A stretch of DNA of 20,939 bases from a virus: the IMG/VR virus record IMGVR_UViG_3300035663_000127, positions 1 through 20,939 of that record, one strand, 5' to 3'. Shown here in pieces: positions 4,423 to 20,441 of the stretch. How positions within the stretch are numbered: position 1 is the first letter of the stretch; each line of letters starts with the position of its first letter. Position numbers and translations under genes: made by a program. The notes under the pieces are model-generated. The model did no database searches and was not told the origin of the DNA. It was given only the letters and a program-made list of their open reading frames with translations.

Positions 4423-5633
4423 TATTCTTCTGGTTCTGTTGGTTCTGTTGGTTCTGTTGGTTCTTCATTACTATAACCAATTAATTCACGTTTTTCTTCA
4501 TTTGTTAGAACATCGAAGAACGCTGGATCAACTCCAAATATATTCAAGCTACCTATGGTCCAATCTAAATTCAAATCTTTGTAAAGCATTTCGAATGCCT
4601 TGGTGCATAAGTTCTGGTATGGTATAATTACACTACTGAATAGCTTCATAGAGTTTTGAATAGCTTGGGAATTACCCAAACCATCATCTGTCTTTAATCC
4701 AATAAGAACTGGTGGAACTCCAAAATTCCTTGCAACTTTATGAGCAACCCTATTAGTTGCGCCATCAACTGCATCTAGCATTTCTGCTAATGGGTAAACA
4801 AGTATTTCTGGTAGTTGTTCCCTTGTTGAAGCATTAAGAACAAGAACGGTGCTGGCATCTTCACCAGTAAATTCTTTCAAATTATCATCAAAATGGTCTG
4901 AATCTGTTTTACCAAAATCGTCTTTCTGCTTATTGTCTATATCACCTACGGTTGAAATGATTACATTCGGACGAAAACCCCTAGTGATATTCCTATTTTC
5001 TAAATTAGCCAATGCCCCATCACTTAATACATCATTCAAAGCACTACTCCAATCTGGAACTGGATAATATTGTGAATAAGGAGATTTCACATAAACGTAA
5101 AGCATCTCACCTATTTGTTTTCCATGCTCTTTCATTTGAGCATCTATTTGTTTTACCCTATCGATTTCATTCATATAGGAATAGCAAGGATAAACTATTG
5201 AAGAATTCTTTTTAAAATGATCAGTTCCATAAGTATCATTGTAACATAGGCAACCATCATCCATCTTTCTAACTTGTTGTAAAGGCACAAGATAAACTGC
5301 ACCAACCTTTCCGTCAAGTCTATATTTGATATTCAATACAAATCCACTGAATAAAGCAAGTTGATATGCCATTTCAGCTAGTAATGAATCTGCAGTTTGT
5401 GTTGGATTAACCTTTAGATTAGCACTAGCTTCATTTGTGAAACCATCTGCTTCTACGAATTGCTTAATTTTTGTAACGCATGAAGTGGCAGTACCACTTG
5501 AAGAAACTGCATTTAATAGGGTATTGGGTAGTATATTTTCACGACCATACTGAATAACCCCATCTAGTCTTGATATTGAATGTTCGGGGATAGCAGCATA
5601 AATGAATTTGAGAATCTTACTGCTCAGGCTCAT
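4422..5633 (-). CDS. Portal protein
   Basis: 403 residues. The portal forms the dodecameric DNA channel at the capsid vertex. The features fit the SPP1/HK97 portal class: an N-terminal helical part; a clip/wing region rich in Tyr and Pro (YVYVKSPYSQYYPVPDWSSA); a central DGALANLENRNITRGFRPN helix; and the conserved late stretch VARNFGVPPVLIGLKTDDGL followed by a long helix with SVIIPYQNLCTKAFE. The length is usual for short portals. The C-terminus is an acidic EPT tandem repeat. The gene starts within the last codons of the 83-residue gene and ends in a one-base overlap with the connector gene. It lies downstream of the capsid gene, not upstream as usual. Confidence 0.85.
   Translation of the reverse strand: MSLSSKILKFIYAAIPEHSISRLDGVIQYGRENILPNTLLNAVSSSGTATSCVTKIKQFVEADGFTNEASANLKVNPTQTADSLLAEMAYQLALFSGFVLNIKYRLDGKVGAVYLVPLQQVRKMDDGCLCYNDTYGTDHFKKNSSIVYPCYSYMNEIDRVKQIDAQMKEHGKQIGEMLYVYVKSPYSQYYPVPDWSSALNDVLSDGALANLENRNITRGFRPNVIISTVGDIDNKQKDDFGKTDSDHFDDNLKEFTGEDASTVLVLNASTREQLPEILVYPLAEMLDAVDGATNRVAHKVARNFGVPPVLIGLKTDDGLGNSQAIQNSMKLFSSVIIPYQNLCTKAFEMLYKDLNLDWTIGSLNIFGVDPAFFDVLTNEEKRELIGYSNEEPTEPTEPTEPEE
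4432..4463 (-). repeat. 9-bp tandem repeat encoding EPT repeats
   Basis: GGTTCTGTT (plus strand) occurs at 4432-4440, 4441-4449 and 4450-4458, with a partial fourth unit GGTTC. It encodes the portal's Glu-Pro-Thr tail. In-frame repeat-number change would lengthen or shorten the tail without breaking the gene. Confidence 0.8.
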
Positions 5634-5868
5634 TGTCTGTAGTATTATTTGTTTTTTTCTTCTTCTTAGTAACCTTTGAAGAATCAGCTAATGGGTAATC
5701 TATTTTTTCATCAATTACTTCCGTATTGATTTTTGTAATACAACCCCCAATACCAGAAGCTATTAACTTTTCTGCTAGTTCATCTGTCAAATTATCATTC
5801 GTGACAATCCCAAACTGCCTAGAAACAATTCTTTGTCCTGGTATCATTGAATATTTTCTATTTTGCAT
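5617..5868 (-). CDS. Small head-module protein, paralogue of 8713-8910
   Basis: 83 residues, no named family recognised. The core reads RKYSMIPGQRIVSRQFGIVT followed by NDNLTDELAEKLIASGIGGC. The 65-residue protein at 8713-8910 has the same plan: (R/K)KYSxxxG, then (I/V)TNDxLTDELAxxxI, then a Gly-containing strand and a Lys-rich end. Here the tail carries a run of five Lys followed by an Asn/Asp/Glu-rich end. It overlaps the 66-residue gene upstream and the portal gene downstream, so it is translated together with the portal. A minor capsid, decoration or packaging-related role is possible, but nothing proves it. Confidence 0.65.
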   Translation of the reverse strand: MQNRKYSMIPGQRIVSRQFGIVTNDNLTDELAEKLIASGIGGCITKINTEVIDEKIDYPLADSSKVTKKKKKTNNTTDNEPEQ

Positions 5869-6685: not shown

Positions 6686-7678
6686 TTACCCTACGTAAAC
6701 TACTTTCTGTGTCTGAGTAACTACGGTAGCCCCTTGAGTGAAAACACCCTTGAAGAAACGAGTTTCAGCATTGTTTGCAACTTTGTCAATTTGAATAAAA
6801 GAAAAATCAGAAGTTGCATCAGTTCCCCAGATAAGGTCTGACATACGACCAGCAATCATTGTGTTCTCAGGCAATGGAACAAAAGTAATCTTCACTCCTA
6901 AGAAATAATAGTTACCAGCATTGTCTACAGAAAACTTATCTCTGAAAGTTTGATCAGTATTGTAGATATTGATAAACTGCATATGGCTTTCTGGTGCATA
7001 AATTCTTAATTCACCTAGCATGCTTCCTTTCAACAATACGGTTGGGATTGCAGCATAAACCAATTTATATTCGTCCCAGATATTGGTAGCATCGATAGTT
7101 GTTCCAGCGATATTGAAAGCAGTTCCACCAGCACCATTATTGTAAATAAGATAAGAAAGGATTCCATCACACAAAGTTAAAGGCGCAGCAAGAGCATACG
7201 CTTTAGTTTCTGCAGTAATCATACCTCCAAGTGGGGCAGCAGCAACAGCAGCTTTAGTAGCAGTAGTCATTCCATTCCAGAAATTCATTTCAGCTTTTCT
7301 ACTCATTTTTGTAGCGTATGTTTCCATAACGATACGAACCCATTCTTGGTTGATACTTTCCCATGCACCAGAACGCATACCAGCAGAGAAACGTGTAAAA
7401 CGTAAATCTTCTGGGCACCACTCTTGGTAAGACATGTACTTACAAGGGCGAAGAATTCCATCATTAATAGTAATATCACCAGAAGGAGTTGGAACTCCGC
7501 ATACATAGGCTTGTAAATCTACATCTACTCCCATTTCGGTAATAATTGTTTCGGCTTTGATGTCAGTCAACAACCTTACTTTGTTTTCAGAAATAGTTTC
7601 ATTCTGAAATAATACTTCCATAAAGATTTCTTGGAACGCTGGTCCTACGAATTCTATTGGTGAATAATTAATTGCCAT
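6686..7678 (-). CDS. Major capsid protein (HK97-fold type)
   Basis: 330 residues. The N-terminal arm (IEFVGPAFQEIFMEVLFQNE) leads into Thr/Ile-rich strands and the E-loop region. Helical spine segments include the one around QEWVRIVMETYATKMSRKAE. An Ala/Gly-rich region follows. The C-terminal A-domain pattern (IYAPESHMQFINIYNTDQTF; FIQIDKVANNAETRFFKGVF, then TQGATVV) is characteristic of Bacteroidetes phage capsids. The position after protease, scaffold and small head proteins supports the call. The leader is very A/T-rich (aaattaaataaaaaataaaaa), as expected for a strongly translated gene in this phylum. No sign of an N-terminal delta domain; the protease/scaffold is encoded separately. Confidence 0.85.
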   Translation of the reverse strand: MAINYSPIEFVGPAFQEIFMEVLFQNETISENKVRLLTDIKAETIITEMGVDVDLQAYVCGVPTPSGDITINDGILRPCKYMSYQEWCPEDLRFTRFSAGMRSGAWESINQEWVRIVMETYATKMSRKAEMNFWNGMTTATKAAVAAAPLGGMITAETKAYALAAPLTLCDGILSYLIYNNGAGGTAFNIAGTTIDATNIWDEYKLVYAAIPTVLLKGSMLGELRIYAPESHMQFINIYNTDQTFRDKFSVDNAGNYYFLGVKITFVPLPENTMIAGRMSDLIWGTDATSDFSFIQIDKVANNAETRFFKGVFTQGATVVTQTQKVVYVG

Positions 7679-7712: not shown

Positions 7713-8297
7713 TTATAGTATTCCGTAAGTCCATCCAAAAGGCTGTATCTTCTTCCAGTCAACTCCTTGACTAGGAGACCCGTAATACCTTGTATAGGAT
7801 TCATTCGCGGCAAGTTTACTTACAAACTTATAAAGTTCTAGGAATTCTGCCTTATCAGTCACATAAAGTTTTACCTTTCCAGGACTTATACGTTCAATAG
7901 CAGCTGGATCAAGTCCAAACTTTTTTATAATTGTATCAATGTCCTTTTGCATTTCTGATTTCTGTAATTTACTATCTGGATTCTCGTTCACCATCATCAT
8001 AGAAGGTTGCACTGGTTCTGCGTCAGAAACCTTTATAGAATTTTTATCAGCATACAGATACTTTCCATTTACCAATTTATATAGCTGGTAAGGTCTGCTT
8101 GGATCAATATCGTACATAGTTTTTATTCTGAACAATGCCTTATCTGTTCCTTGGGTTGAAGTGTACCAAAATTCAGTACCAGCCCTTAGCTTTGACCATA
8201 ATGCTTTCGATGTATATTCAGCTGGTGTGAATTTAACTACTGCGGCTTGTGCAGCACGTTTTCTGTCGAATTCTAATCTTTCTTTGTGATTAAACAT
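7713..8297 (-). CDS. Head-module protein with shared N-terminal tag, unknown function
   Basis: 194 residues, no named family recognised. Residues 4-20 (HKERLEFDRKRAAQAAV) match residues 3-20 of the preceding protein (PWKERLKLDRARDSQAAV) and, more loosely, the C-terminus of the protease/scaffold (PWSKRIKQDQAIKDLI). The rest has a small strand-rich region with many Tyr (about 42-85), a Met-rich linker (PSMMMVNENP), and an alpha/beta part with IIKKFGLDPAAIERI and KVKLYVTDKAEFLELYKF. It lies directly upstream of the capsid gene and overlaps the previous gene by 8 bases. Either an internal head protein delivered by the tag, or a decoration protein; the tag idea is inference. Confidence 0.6.
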   Translation of the reverse strand: MFNHKERLEFDRKRAAQAAVVKFTPAEYTSKALWSKLRAGTEFWYTSTQGTDKALFRIKTMYDIDPSRPYQLYKLVNGKYLYADKNSIKVSDAEPVQPSMMMVNENPDSKLQKSEMQKDIDTIIKKFGLDPAAIERISPGKVKLYVTDKAEFLELYKFVSKLAANESYTRYYGSPSQGVDWKKIQPFGWTYGIL

Positions 8298-8709
8298 AGT
8301 TATTTTCTGGTTTTCTTACTCCATTACCCCATAGGGTATAGAATGGTTTTTTTAAGTCTTTTTGTTTCTTTACGTATGCGTCATGCAATTTTTGTGCAGA
8401 TGCATATAGTTTCTTAGATAGTTGGTTAGTTTTATCCCAATTTTTATATGCGTCAGCAACTTTCTTTGAAGTAGCTTTAGTTTCTGGGGTTTGTAATCCA
8501 TTGGAATTTTGGTACATTACTTTCAGTTCAGCTTCTAAATTCTTATAATCTGACCATGCTTTATCCGCAGCGATAGCAGCTTTCTGATAGTCCTTTCCAG
8601 CAGTTTTTACATTTGGGGGCAAACCATTACTTGGAGGTCCAGAAAAGCTAACAGCTGCCTGAGAATCCCTTGCCCTATCCAATTTTAATCGTTCTTTCCA
8701 AGGCTGCAT
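8290..8709 (-). CDS. Helical head-module protein with shared N-terminal tag
   Basis: 139 residues, no named family recognised. After the N-terminal PWKERLKLDRARDSQAAV segment there is a Pro/Gly linker (GPPSNGLPPN). A long Lys/Ala-rich helical region follows (about 38-120, with KDYQKAAIAADKAWSDYKNL and KKLYASAQKLHDAYVKKQKD), likely coiled coil and strongly basic. The end is FYTLWGNGVRKPENNYV. A basic helical protein of this kind could sit inside the capsid near DNA. Its ATG lies three bases past the preceding stop codon. Function unknown. Confidence 0.6.
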   Translation of the reverse strand: MQPWKERLKLDRARDSQAAVSFSGPPSNGLPPNVKTAGKDYQKAAIAADKAWSDYKNLEAELKVMYQNSNGLQTPETKATSKKVADAYKNWDKTNQLSKKLYASAQKLHDAYVKKQKDLKKPFYTLWGNGVRKPENNYV

Positions 8710-8712
8710 GTC

Positions 8713-8910
8713 TTACTTCTTTTTAGGTTTAGCACTAGCTTTAGGTAGCTTTACTTTGTTCTCCAAAATCACAGAACCAAGCAATGACGGATTCTTTTTT
8801 ATAAAATGATCTGCCAATTCATCAGTTAATTGATCATTGGTGATTAGTGAGTTTGGACCATAAGGTCTAAAATCTACACCTTCCTTAATGGAATATTTCT
8901 TAGTTGCCAT
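8713..8910 (-). CDS. Small head-module protein, paralogue of 5617-5868
   Basis: 65 residues. The core KKYSIKEGVDFRPYGPNSLI, followed by TNDQLTDELADHFIKKNPSL, aligns by eye with the 83-residue protein before the portal gene. The tail is Lys-rich (LPKASAKPKKK). The start codon lies inside the end of the protease gene (11-base overlap), so it is coupled to it. A duplicated small gene with one copy after the protease and the other before the portal suggests related but separate jobs in head assembly. No family name can be given. Confidence 0.65.
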   Translation of the reverse strand: MATKKYSIKEGVDFRPYGPNSLITNDQLTDELADHFIKKNPSLLGSVILENKVKLPKASAKPKKK

Positions 8911-9481
8911 TTATCAAATCTTTTATAGCTTGATCTTGCTTAATTCTTTTTGACCATGGAGTGTCAGACTTTTGCTCTGCACCAGAAGAACCAACTATTC
9001 CACTATCTCCAATTACCAATGCTTTCATTGAATCAAACTCAGTTTTGATAGCAAGAACTTGTGCTTGTAATTCTGTCTTTTCACTTTCAGTTGAAGCAGT
9101 TAATTCAGCAATCTTAGCTTCCAATAATGCATTCTTTTCAGTAAGTTCAGTATTTGCAGCAATAGTTTCTTCAAGTTTCTTAGCCTCGTCTGCTGGTTCG
9201 TCTGTAGAAGCGGTTGGCATGATTAAGTCTGTAACTAATCCTTCTGTTACGATAATTCTTGTTCCATCATCAAAAACATACTCACCATCTGCTACTGGCA
9301 TTGTCATTTCTTCATCACTAAATACTGCAAGTTGTAGGGCAAGTTCACCATCGTGATAAATTTTGGTACCATCTTCAAGTACTGCCATCAATCCAACTAC
9401 GTTTCTTGTTGGGAATAAAGAAATTACCTTATTCATTAGTAATTCCAGTTTGCTTAGTTTGTTCGTTACTTCAGTATTCAT
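8900..9481 (-). CDS. Possible nested scaffold protein from an internal start
   Basis: Residue 220 of the protease ORF is an ATG (9481-9479) preceded by an A-rich stretch (aaatctaacaataacaaagaa), the usual initiation context in this window. It lies exactly at the linker between the protease domain and the scaffold-like part. A separate 193-residue product would equal the coiled-coil scaffold with its C-terminal motif, as with Nu3 inside the C gene of phage lambda. Inference from layout only. Confidence 0.4.
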   Translation of the reverse strand: MNTEVTNKLSKLELLMNKVISLFPTRNVVGLMAVLEDGTKIYHDGELALQLAVFSDEEMTMPVADGEYVFDDGTRIIVTEGLVTDLIMPTASTDEPADEAKKLEETIAANTELTEKNALLEAKIAELTASTESEKTELQAQVLAIKTEFDSMKALVIGDSGIVGSSGAEQKSDTPWSKRIKQDQAIKDLINGN

Positions 9482-10138
9482 TTCTTTGTTATTGTTAGAT
9501 TTATATTTTGCTAATATTAGGTCGGTATATACCGCTTTAATTTGTTTTTGACTTTCTAGATATCCAGTTGCGAAACCCATTTCAATAGCTTTTGCAGAAC
9601 CTAGATTTGTATCTTTTTTCATTAGATCATTAAGTTCAATCTTCTCATTCTCTTTTAGCTTTAGACCATTAGAATAGAAATCGAACATTTTGTTCTCAGA
9701 TGAACGGACTTCATTACTAACAGATTGAAGTTCATCAGCAGTTAATTTCATGCCAGTTAATTGTTCTGGACCTAGCCATGGATTGTGAATTACAAATTCA
9801 GCATTCTTAGATAGATACCTTTCTGAACCAGCCATGAATATTACCGTAGCAATACTATTTACCTTATAACCTTTTGTGATTATTTTTTTACCCGAGTTAA
9901 TTAACTGATCGTAGATATCGAAACCTTGTGAAACAGATCCTCCATTTGAACGAATTATTACTTCAATAACATCGGCATCTGCATTGGCAGCAAGGAATTC
10001 AGCGACCATATCACTACTTACAGATTTGTCTTGCAAACCTAAGTCTAGAGTTCTAGGATCAGGAGTTCCTATATTACCTTCTATTCTTAATGTAGCCTTA
10101 TTCATATTACAAATATATTGATTAAATTTATATTCCAA
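8900..10138 (-). CDS. ClpP-type prohead maturation protease fused to a scaffold-like C-terminus
   Basis: 412 residues from the upstream ATG. The protease domain (about 12-200) shows IIRSNGGSV (61-69), the nucleophile Ser in VNSIATVIFMAG (S95), His in FVIHNPW (H118) and a plausible third residue Asp in KKDTNLG (D176): the ClpP-like triad of phage head proteases. After an Asn/Lys linker (213-219), residues 220-412 hold a small strand-rich part and a Glu/Ala-rich coiled coil (about 320-375), and end in PWSKRIKQDQAIKDLI. The scaffold part would guide capsid assembly and then be cleaved. M12 (ATG 10105-10103) may be the true start, since a TAnnTTTG box lies four bases upstream of it. The gene follows the tape measure and opens the head block. 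Confidence 0.8.
   Translation of the reverse strand: MEYKFNQYICNMNKATLRIEGNIGTPDPRTLDLGLQDKSVSSDMVAEFLAANADADVIEVIIRSNGGSVSQGFDIYDQLINSGKKIITKGYKVNSIATVIFMAGSERYLSKNAEFVIHNPWLGPEQLTGMKLTADELQSVSNEVRSSENKMFDFYSNGLKLKENEKIELNDLMKKDTNLGSAKAIEMGFATGYLESQKQIKAVYTDLILAKYKSNNNKEMNTEVTNKLSKLELLMNKVISLFPTRNVVGLMAVLEDGTKIYHDGELALQLAVFSDEEMTMPVADGEYVFDDGTRIIVTEGLVTDLIMPTASTDEPADEAKKLEETIAANTELTEKNALLEAKIAELTASTESEKTELQAQVLAIKTEFDSMKALVIGDSGIVGSSGAEQKSDTPWSKRIKQDQAIKDLINGN
10110..10117 (-). promoter_or_regulatory. Candidate Bacteroidetes -7 box before the head block
   Basis: The minus strand reads TATATTTG, an exact TAnnTTTG match, four bases before the ATG at 10105. TTG lies 18 bases upstream at 10138-10136, a partial -33 element. 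It sits between the tape measure stop (10165) and the protease. If used, the transcript would be leaderless or nearly so and would start protein synthesis at M12. Confidence 0.4.
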
Positions 10139-13530: not shown

Positions 13531-15497
13531 TAGTTTGATATTAAGATTAAGACTACTTGAGTACTATCCTTGCTGGTTACCTTATACTGCTGAATTTCAT
13601 TTATATAAAAATAAGCATTAAAGTAATCTATCCATATTGGTAAACTGAAATCTAGTTTATTGATATCTATGTTAGATAAGCGAAGTAAACAAGTAATAGA
13701 TTTGCCTTTATTTATAATCAAAGATAATTGCGGGTAGTTCTCGGTCAATAAATTTTGAAAAACCAAATCGTCAAAGTATACATTCGGTTGTACTGGGGTG
13801 AAGAAACCTCCTGGCTGAATTGTAAGTAAAGCCGAAGTATCTTGCTCAATATATGCTATTCTTGGCTGAACTTGTGTAAATACTGGACCATCAAAGCAAG
13901 GTATCCATGCCAAAGGTATTGTGCCTGAGTATGAATTAAGCCTTATTGTTGCTGCGAATACTGATAAAAATAATTCTTGTTGAGTTCCAGTTGGTGCTGA
14001 ATTTACAACTATATTACCTTCACCATAGTTTCCAAGCCTCATAAGATATTCGTCTTGATCATCACCTACATACCTAAAATAATTATTTCTAAAGTATTCC
14101 TTAGATATGAAATTGATTACTGGAACTTGTTCTATATCCAACTTATCCGACCAATCATTAGCTATTGGTATATTGGTAATAAGTTTTTCATATTTGAATA
14201 TCTTGACTACATTACTTGTCTGTTCTTGTTGGAATGTTAGTCCAAATTGATTACATAGTGTTAGTAGAAAATCAGTCAACTGAATATCTGGTAGTGTACC
14301 ACCAAGAGTAATGAAGTTGAAAGCAAAGTTAATTTCTAAATCACCGCTATCTTCTTCAGAAGGTACTATATTGAATTCTAATGTACTACCAGCGTAAATT
14401 TTACATTGTTGTAAATTTATTCTAACAGCACCCCTACCAATATCTAATGTGAATGAACCTACTATATTTGTAAGTGGCTGTATGCCTGACACTACTGGTA
14501 TAATATTAAATAGCTGGGTATTTCCATCCTTGTCTACATAATCTACTAATATCTGAGTAGTTGTCGCAGCTGGTGGTGCTAATGTGTCTGTCTCGTATGT
14601 GATATTGTAATCTATAGTTAATTTGCCACCATCTAGAGTACAGAAAGAAGATGCAATTTGCCTTGTCGGACTTAGGAAGAATGGGGTAGTTGGTATGCTC
14701 AATGTATCTCCTAGCCTAAAATTAAAGCATGGAGTATCTAATATATGATTCGTATTAGTATGAAAGTTTATAGGTACAAAGCCAGGATTGTTGTTGCTTA
14801 CATCGGTGCCCAAAGTATAAATAAAATTATTTCTTAATGAATAGTTTTTATCCCTTTGCCATAAGGCACTCCATGGAATAATCATCTTTTCAAGTAATGG
14901 ATCATTGTCGTACCATTCGCTATCTATTATCAAACCTAGAATATCAAATATCCTTTTGAATAAATACTTTACATAGATAGCTGGATATAATTTTGAGAAG
15001 TCAACATTACTACCAGCCAGAAAAAACAATTCTCCATAATCAATATTTGGATATATGTAAACATCTGTCCAGACATTACTCCTTGAAGATATTGTAGTTG
15101 ATATGTTCCAGTATTGGCTATATTCACAACCAACTAACAATGATTGTAAACTTCTATCTTGGATATTAGCAAACAGATTAGCATTTGTACCATATATTTG
15201 CATTTCATATTCAAACTTAGTTGCAGATACTAAATTAAAATACCCTTTCACTTGAAGAATTCCATCTGTGTAAATTTCAACTGGAACATTTTCGTAAGGA
15301 ATATCAGAAGTGCTTAGAATGTTATTATTAATTTCTAGTATAAGATTATTCCTACTTGTTGCTGGTATCTTGAAAGTGTTGGAATATGAACCATTCCTAT
15401 TTTCAATGCTGAATAAATTATTCACTTCAAATGAAACTACTATTTCCTCATTTGTGAATAGGTCTAATGCCTCACCATTTACTACGATCTCTGTCAT
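13530..15497 (-). CDS. Tail tip / baseplate hub candidate
   Basis: 655 residues, strand-rich throughout. Near the N-terminus is FEVNNLFSIENRNGSYSNTF, then KIPATSRNN (about 23-51), a pattern I associate with large tail proteins of Bacteroidetes phages, where an NRxGSYSxTxxxPxT motif recurs. The body is rich in Asn, Ile and Thr with many aromatics and no coiled coil. In transcription order it lies between the 281-residue tail protein and the tape measure, overlapping the first by four bases and the second by one. A hub (Tal-like) role at the tail tip is the best guess; the motif is recognised but its function is not proven. Confidence 0.55.
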   Translation of the reverse strand: MTEIVVNGEALDLFTNEEIVVSFEVNNLFSIENRNGSYSNTFKIPATSRNNLILEINNNILSTSDIPYENVPVEIYTDGILQVKGYFNLVSATKFEYEMQIYGTNANLFANIQDRSLQSLLVGCEYSQYWNISTTISSRSNVWTDVYIYPNIDYGELFFLAGSNVDFSKLYPAIYVKYLFKRIFDILGLIIDSEWYDNDPLLEKMIIPWSALWQRDKNYSLRNNFIYTLGTDVSNNNPGFVPINFHTNTNHILDTPCFNFRLGDTLSIPTTPFFLSPTRQIASSFCTLDGGKLTIDYNITYETDTLAPPAATTTQILVDYVDKDGNTQLFNIIPVVSGIQPLTNIVGSFTLDIGRGAVRINLQQCKIYAGSTLEFNIVPSEEDSGDLEINFAFNFITLGGTLPDIQLTDFLLTLCNQFGLTFQQEQTSNVVKIFKYEKLITNIPIANDWSDKLDIEQVPVINFISKEYFRNNYFRYVGDDQDEYLMRLGNYGEGNIVVNSAPTGTQQELFLSVFAATIRLNSYSGTIPLAWIPCFDGPVFTQVQPRIAYIEQDTSALLTIQPGGFFTPVQPNVYFDDLVFQNLLTENYPQLSLIINKGKSITCLLRLSNIDINKLDFSLPIWIDYFNAYFYINEIQQYKVTSKDSTQVVLILISN

Positions 15498-16339
15498 TGA
15501 GTTTGTACTAATAATTCTGTTGAATACTTCACTTGAATATTATACCTAGCTACTCCGTCACCATCTTCATATAGGTTGAAATCATTTTCTTCAATAAGTA
15601 TAGGTAGGAATGTATTACCTAGAACAAATGCTTGTATTGAAAACTTTAGACTCTTGATAAAATTAAGGTGACTAATTGGTATCTCACCGCTCAATACTAA
15701 TACCTTGTCGTAAACCCCAGTAACACTAGAGTATCGCTGAATATTATTTGTATTCTTATAAATTTGCTTATTCTCTATTCCAACTTGATATGTCTTCTTT
15801 CCTTGAAAACAATAGCTTGACCATCCACCCATTGGATTCAGCCAAGTAACATTGATATCCCATGGAGTACAGAAATCATAAGTATCTAAGCATGTATCAA
15901 AAACAAATTCAACTAGGTAAACATTATTTGGATTGCCAGAATCTTCGAATAATACATAGAAAGTTCCAACTTGATTGACTGAAAATATGAAATATCCAAA
16001 TGCTAAAGTAAGCCATTCTGGGTAATAGTTACCAGATAATACATAACCTACTGGTACCGCTTGTAACGGCAGTGTATCTGTTAAACAAAGTGTATGGGTA
16101 ACACTAGGCGCAACAGCAGTTACAGTGAGTGTAATCGTGTCGTGGAATACATTTAAGGAATTATTTATAGTGAATACATAAACCCCAGCTACTGGAACAA
16201 CATCAACTTCCAAAGTATAGTCAACTCCATTATATGTGAAACCAATATTATCTGGTTCATTTACCATATACAAACCTAGAGTAGAATCTAAGTAAGTAAA
16301 ATTTCTATACTGGTATTGATTAATTGTAAAAGCTGCCAT
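15494..16339 (-). CDS. Tail protein, distal-tail-like candidate
   Basis: 281 residues. The N-terminal half is beta-sandwich-like (alternating Val/Thr/Tyr, with VAGVYVFTINNSLNVFHDTI). The second half starts with INVTWLNPMGGWSSYCFQGK (about 163-182), a WLNxxGGxxxYxF pattern frequent in Bacteroidetes phage tail proteins, and ends in a strand-rich part (SIQAFVLGNTFLPILIEEND). There is no signal peptide or membrane segment. It shares an ATGA overlap with the 655-residue gene. A distal-tail or baseplate ring role fits the position. Confidence in the precise function is low; confidence that it is a structural gene is high. Confidence 0.5.
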   Translation of the reverse strand: MAAFTINQYQYRNFTYLDSTLGLYMVNEPDNIGFTYNGVDYTLEVDVVPVAGVYVFTINNSLNVFHDTITLTVTAVAPSVTHTLCLTDTLPLQAVPVGYVLSGNYYPEWLTLAFGYFIFSVNQVGTFYVLFEDSGNPNNVYLVEFVFDTCLDTYDFCTPWDINVTWLNPMGGWSSYCFQGKKTYQVGIENKQIYKNTNNIQRYSSVTGVYDKVLVLSGEIPISHLNFIKSLKFSIQAFVLGNTFLPILIEENDFNLYEDGDGVARYNIQVKYSTELLVQTQ

Positions 16340-19736: not shown

Positions 19737-20441
19737 AATTCCTTTGCCTTATTTCTGTTAGTTTCTTTTCAAACTCTGCCTTATCCTTTTCAAATAACAA
19801 TGTAAAAAATATAGTTTCTGCTGGTGTATCAAGTATCGATTCATACTTAGTTACATCACCATTAGCTAGTGTATTCAATGTCTTAAAGAACCCGTACTTT
19901 TCAAAAACTTCAATTCCAGCTTCTTCTTCTTCCTCTGTTATTTTATTTCCTTCGCCTAATTTAGCGAAACGTTCATAAAACTTAGATAATTGCTCAAAAA
20001 AAAATTAGCAAGTCCTATCACTTCTGTAACTGGTTTATCATCTATTTCAATTCCAGTATATGTTTTCACTATTGAACTGGCAGCATTTATTGAATCTTTA
20101 CCATCAAGCATAGCGATAGCTTTCTTAGCTTCTTCTAATTTAGCCCAGCTTTGATGCCCGATATAATAATCTTTGTATTCATCAGATACGTTGTTGTACT
20201 TTAACAATTCATCTGGTGAAAAGACAAATGATATAGTAGGGTATATTTGTAGCATGTTCTCTGCTGAGATAAAATCAACTTCATCGTATGGTAAGCCCAG
20301 CATTATAGCTATTCTTCTTTTGAAACTTCCATCATCGTAGTTAATTAATTCAACATACTTCTTGAAAGTAACTTCCTTCCATTCTTCTGGCACATTTACT
20401 TGATACAGCCCTAAAGTAGATTTGACATTAAATTTTACCAT
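19714..20441 (-). CDS. Probable -1 frameshift fusion product of the chaperone gene
   Basis: If the ribosome slips back one base on the T run, about 148 residues of the zero frame continue for about 94 residues in the -1 frame to a TGA at 19716-19714, giving about 242 residues. The extension reads FEQLSKFYERFAKLGEGNKI, then an Glu run, FEKYGFFKTLNTLANGDVTK, YESILDTPAETIFFTLL and a basic helical end. Its length, helical character and LANGDVxxYE pattern look like genuine chaperone sequence, and no start codon of its own is seen. The alternatives are a sequencing indel in the homopolymer or a real mutation. Confidence 0.55.
19956..20441 (-). CDS. Tail assembly chaperone candidate, unshifted product
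   Basis: 161 residues. The N-terminus (VPEEWKEVTFKKYVELINYD) is a common start for phage tail assembly chaperone-type proteins. It is followed by helical sequence (RRIAIMLGLPYDEVDFISAE; KLEEAKKAIAMLDGKDSINA) and a short hydrophobic end (LANFFLSNYLSFMNVSLN). These chaperones bind the tape measure and tube protein and are not part of the virion. The start was chosen because a TAnnTTTG box lies four bases upstream, after the terminase terminator. A nine-T run at 20004-19996 near the end allows a -1 shift into a 94-codon open frame, as in lambda G/GT. Unusually, it sits far from the tape measure. Confidence 0.55.
   Translation of the reverse strand: MVKFNVKSTLGLYQVNVPEEWKEVTFKKYVELINYDDGSFKRRIAIMLGLPYDEVDFISAENMLQIYPTISFVFSPDELLKYNNVSDEYKDYYIGHQSWAKLEEAKKAIAMLDGKDSINAASSIVKTYTGIEIDDKPVTEVIGLANFFLSNYLSFMNVSLN
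19995..20004 (-). promoter_or_regulatory. Candidate -1 frameshift slippery site
   Basis: The minus strand reads AAT-TTT-TTT-TTG-AGC, nine T in a row, so the tRNA pairs T-TTT-TTT or T-TTT-TTG can both re-pair after a one-base backward slip. The zero-frame stop lies 13 codons further on. A small stem (19951-19968) overlaps that stop but is about 27 bases from the run, too distant for a usual stimulator. Confidence 0.55.

Follow-up and report, generated by a model that had tools for sequence, protein, structure and literature searches.

Candidate scaffold-copy tags at the N termini of two proteins in the head operon of an uncultured Bacteroidota-type phage

Results

Genes and peptides at the head locus

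We analyzed a virus record of 20,939 bases (IMGVR_UViG_3300035663_000127, positions 1 to 20,939), here called the window, from an uncultured Bacteroidota-type phage. The - strand carries its structural genes, which are, in order, those of the tail tape measure, protease/scaffold, 65-aa protein, 139-aa protein, 194-aa protein and capsid protein (Table 1). The 139-aa and 194-aa genes, which overlap by 8 bases, are two and three genes downstream of the protease/scaffold gene and lie directly before the major capsid gene. The protease/scaffold matches Pfam CLP_protease (4.8e-16), the PHROG head maturation protease (1.3e-31) and the NCBIfam ClpP-related head maturation domain. Its alignment with homologues begins at residue 12, and because the homologues begin at an internal ATG, its true start is probably the ATG at 10105, the TTG at 10138 being about 11 codons too early. 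A structural protein of Cellulophaga phage phi46:1, identified by MS, shares 43% identity with the capsid protein. The 65-aa protein has a paralogue in the window, an 83-aa protein at 5617-5868 (LITNDQLTDELADHFI and IVTNDNLTDELAEKLI, respectively); the closest relatives have a member of the 65-aa kind after the scaffold and one of the 83-aa kind before the portal gene.

Table 1. Features of the head locus in the window
Feature	Position	Strand	Remarks
ClpP-like prohead protease fused to scaffold	8900..10138	-	412 aa counted from TTG
Scaffold C-terminal motif PWSKRIKQDQAIKDLINGN	8903..8959	-	conserved at the C terminus in relatives
65-aa small head-operon protein	8713..8910	-	kept in relatives; without tag
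139-aa protein	8290..8709	-	basic, net +12; N-terminal tag, Gly/Pro-rich linker, predicted helical hairpin
139-aa tag, residues 3-20 PWKERLKLDRARDSQAAV	8650..8703	-	top window match to the profile of other phages' scaffold tails
194-aa protein	7713..8297	-	basic, net +8; N-terminal tag helix, then alpha/beta body of unknown fold
194-aa tag, residues 4-20 HKERLEFDRKRAAQAAV	8238..8288	-	terminus comparisons, profile search, codon comparison
Major capsid protein	6686..7678	-	330 aa; presumed partner of the motif

The first-pass annotation of this DNA had described a peptide shared by the end of the scaffold and the beginnings of the 139-aa and 194-aa proteins, which start MQPWKERLKLDRARDSQAAV and MFNHKERLEFDRKRAAQAAV. 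All three peptides are indeed at the positions claimed, on the - strand, and comparison of the three proteins outside them, where they had been called unrelated, gave no clear relationship. The two smaller proteins had also been called head proteins, a label whose sole basis is gene position.

We compared the 30-residue termini of the 25 window genes in 1200 pairs. The N termini of the 139-aa and 194-aa proteins were the highest-scoring pair (51, p about 5e-5), and the scaffold C terminus with the 139-aa N terminus came fourth (score 40, pair p 3e-4); compared directly in this test, the scaffold C terminus and the 194-aa N terminus scored 18, which is not significant (p 0.12). Among all other window termini, the scaffold tail matched the 139-aa N terminus best, with a family-wise p of 0.005, meaning that a shuffled scaffold tail finds an equally good match among the window termini in about 0.5% of cases. 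The scaffold tails of six relatives (L002, L008, L010, L011, phi46:1 and L026) each ranked the 139-aa N terminus first of 49 window termini, those of L002 and L008 alone being significant singly. The likenesses of the 139-aa N terminus to the scaffold and to the 194-aa N terminus are beyond chance. The link between the 194-aa protein and the scaffold is transitive only, running through the 139-aa protein, to which the 194-aa protein is strongly linked. The third-ranked of the 1200 pairs was a different one: a 281-aa tail-region protein (15494-16339) and a 161-aa protein (19956-20441) have in common an N-terminal STLGLY(M/Q)VN(E/V)P.

The motif is conserved at scaffold ends

Using a capsid-protein alignment, we fetched 54 loci from viral contigs. 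The first-pass annotation had asked whether the motif is conserved in homologues, and on the scaffold side it is kept: a strict match was present at the scaffold end in 46 of the 51 loci with upstream sequence, the window included (those without it were L011, L022, L032, L033 and L047). The protein that bears it is the one before the capsid gene, or before a small protein of 60-100 aa. Among the nearest relatives it reads PWxKRIxxD, and in the other loci (F,W,Y)xx(M)TxLE(K,R)xR. When leave-one-out profiles were run against all ORF termini, the scaffold C terminus scored best in 18 of 20 genomes, the exceptions being G021 and the window itself, where the 139-aa N terminus outscores the scaffold. 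At L022 (4871-5998) the scaffold ORF continues in frame into a protein of the 65-aa type and has no C-terminal motif, which is either a true fusion or a sequencing error. The capsid ORF of L047 (5809-7002) is about 60 residues longer at its N terminus, with a hydrophobic stretch; its start is probably misplaced.

The protease ahead of the motif is either ClpP-like (the window clade and phi46:1) or an XkdF-like S78 protease (L014 and L020); L024 and L059 encode the protease in an ORF of its own, with the motif on the scaffold ORF. Two unrelated protease families thus precede the same scaffold-tail motif, which separate scaffold genes have as well, the capsid proteins being related throughout. 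Because it occurs in all these settings, the motif is a feature of the scaffold that goes with the scaffold part and not with the type of protease. The suggestion that it also serves as an address for the protease itself is not supported, since the motif stays with the scaffold where the protease has its own gene.

A profile from other phages finds the tags

We scanned the 6522 residues of the window proteome with a profile made from the scaffold ends of other phages, the window being excluded. The best match was not the window's own scaffold tail, which came second (13.9 bits), but residues 3-15 of the 139-aa protein (16.2 bits; 0 of 60 shuffles). The 194-aa N terminus was third at 9.9 bits, a score for which we calculate an expectation of about 0.45 anywhere in the window and about 0.02 if the search is limited to the first ten positions of the 25 genes. 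A profile of the MT-type tails alone did not pick up the PW-type tails of the window; the evidence linking the two motif types is therefore position, phi46:1 and the mixed profile.

Codons and predicted structure

The two tags have 11 identical residues, and at 8 of these 11 the codons differ synonymously. Because identical residues are so often encoded differently, it is, on the codon evidence, the peptide, QAAV included, and not the DNA that selection has held. A recent duplication of the tag DNA between the 139-aa gene and the scaffold is ruled out by a DNA similarity not above that of shuffles, and between the 139-aa and 194-aa genes it is made unlikely by the synonymous divergence. QAAV is common to the 139-aa and 194-aa tags only and is absent from the scaffold tail; that it might be a cleavage site is speculation.

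Both tagged proteins are basic, in contrast to most of the window's virion proteins, which are acidic. Single-sequence models predict a helical tag followed by a low-confidence region in both. The 139-aa protein is modeled as a helical hairpin (pLDDT 75 overall, with a block of 81-94 over residues 31-110), and the alpha/beta body of the 194-aa model is unreliable (pLDDT 58). Fold searches with these models gave no significant match, and a simple-moment test of the tag for an amphipathic helix was negative.

The tagged proteins are rare among relatives

Searches for homologues of the 139-aa and 194-aa proteins in viral contigs, 24 related records, phage records and PDB sequences yielded none that was usable, nor was there a usable match in Pfam, PHROGs, NCBIfam or PADLOC. 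Apparent 194-aa homologues in L004-L006 were spurious, being antisense matches with stops. The tag on the 139-aa and 194-aa proteins is therefore known from one genome only. Searches of 23 related records, each with the scaffold tail of that record as query, gave no clear case of a second protein with a tag, so most of these phages do without such proteins. A tag-only scan of viral contigs gave 55 pattern matches, of which tblastn confirmed 0, although 22 residues can hardly be confirmed in this way, and a search of genome contigs with two capsid profiles for prophages found none.

G021 encodes a UvrB/C (UVR) motif protein of 77 aa (L095:3611-3841) that starts MPPEGYEERKELQRHRD and matches the scaffold-tail profile as strongly as the 139-aa N terminus does. 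It might be a second tagged protein. It is encoded in an early, non-structural region, however, and does not match the scaffold tail of its own phage, and matches of equal strength occur about once per 1785 ORFs; the match is probably chance. A single profile match is therefore not to be relied on, and it is the combination of two neighboring genes, their position, their likeness to each other and their differing codons that makes the case for the tag.

Discussion

The motif at the scaffold end is most likely a coat-binding peptide, by analogy with 80alpha, whose scaffold docks on the capsid protein through its last 16 residues (PMC5644958). The best explanation of our data, to which we give a probability of about 0.6, is that the 139-aa and 194-aa proteins imitate the scaffold through scaffold-copy tags and are thereby drawn into the head as it forms. 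According to this model, the last ~15 residues of the scaffold would, as the procapsid assembles, bind to the capsid protein on its inner face; the N termini of the two proteins would be a diverged copy of this peptide, joined to unrelated basic bodies and pulling them into the procapsid as though they were scaffold. They would remain there as internal proteins, probably contacting DNA or being ejected, and the tag may be removed after the shared QAAV. We infer that the tagged proteins bind capsid protein, are encapsidated, are trimmed and function as cargo. The shared address label proposed in the first-pass annotation is thus the best-supported reading, given a scaffold-end motif kept across relatives, its presence at the very beginning of two neighboring late genes just upstream of the capsid gene, and the differing codons; the protease as an addressee is the part that lacks support.

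Three other explanations bear on the same observations. The tagged proteins may not be cargo at all but accessory scaffolds or determinants of capsid size or shape, which would bind capsid protein via the copied peptide and modulate assembly like CpmB in SaPI1. The confidently predicted helical hairpin of the 139-aa protein is a body type of scaffold-like proteins, and SP and CpmB do have a common C-terminal capsid-binding motif (PMC5644958); the tag in the window, however, is N-terminal and sits on two proteins with unrelated bodies, one of which looks alpha/beta, albeit at low confidence, rather than coiled coil. We consider this explanation unlikely. Less probable still is a chance likeness to the scaffold tail, in which the 139-aa and 194-aa N termini would be paralogous to each other and have another role, for example as a shared helical N-terminal domain. 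Their mutual resemblance does far exceed that of either to the scaffold, and they alone have QAAV, but chance sits poorly with the family-wise p and with a 139-aa N terminus that is top for the scaffold tails of six other phages and for the window-excluded profile.

The partner of the tag could also be the scaffold core or the protease rather than the capsid protein, as is held for the T4 capsid targeting sequence (CTS) and core, where propeptides associate with core proteins (PMC9026906, PMC5694885). Like peptides could self-associate, but a copy of the scaffold end would more simply bind that end's own partner. The C terminus of the P22 scaffold binds coat protein, which also counts against binding to the core. 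Scaffold C termini do the same in 80alpha (PMC5644958), and we regard a core or protease partner as improbable.

The proposed imitation of the scaffold has its nearest counterparts in three known systems. In T4, a short N-terminal peptide, the CTS, on the unrelated internal proteins IPI, IPII, IPIII and Alt, which are basic, loads them into the prohead (PMC9026906), and in the window, too, otherwise unrelated proteins have a short N-terminal peptide in common. The CTS, however, contains the L/I-x-E motif at which gp21 cleaves and has not been described as copying a scaffold C terminus, whereas the window has a ClpP-like protease (CLP_protease) whose cleavage motif is not known and tags that read KERLKLDRARDSQAAV and KERLEFDRKRAAQAAV. 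Because neither a gp21-type protease nor L/I-x-E at the tag end is present, the window system is not a member of the T4 type, though it would work like one. In 80alpha and SaPI1, as proposed here, a second protein uses the short coat-binding motif of the phage scaffold, RIIK (PMC5644958), and the window resembles 80alpha SP in having a conserved motif at the extreme C terminus of the scaffold. The RIIK sequence itself is absent, the motif being PWxKRIxxD or (F,W,Y)xxMTxLE(K,R)xR; both 80alpha and SaPI1 motifs are C-terminal and CpmB comes from a satellite and redirects capsid size, whereas the copy in the window is N-terminal and on two proteins of the same phage. The first 30 residues of P1 DarB, an N-terminal capsid targeting signal, are enough for a reporter to be taken into the head (PMC9024508), but the Dar N termini gave no consensus and a separate scaffold is not known in P1. 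Finally, the head operon of phi46:1 has the same order of a ClpP-like protease/scaffold, ending KPYAEMTALERRRYAREIE, a small protein and the capsid protein, but no tagged proteins between scaffold and capsid gene.

A scaffold-copy tag on cargo would be new with respect to T4 CTS, P1 DarB and 80alpha SP/CpmB; no earlier account of one in this phage group turned up in the open-access literature, our coverage of which is far from complete. The fuller proposal that this phage mimics its own scaffold to load cargo, having moved the peptide to the N termini of at least two unrelated basic proteins, with QAAV after it as the place where the ClpP-type prohead protease frees the cargo, we offer tentatively, as possible but with the odds against it. 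If true, phages of a group with a ClpP-like protease would have a portable tag for loading the head, independent of the T4 one. Because they lack homologues, internal head proteins are difficult to spot in small siphophages; if cargo bears a copy of the scaffold tail, each genome would hold its own key, and the scaffold C terminus would predict other head-bound proteins. Such a mechanism would also provide a loading tag, short and swappable, for a group of Bacteroidota phages.
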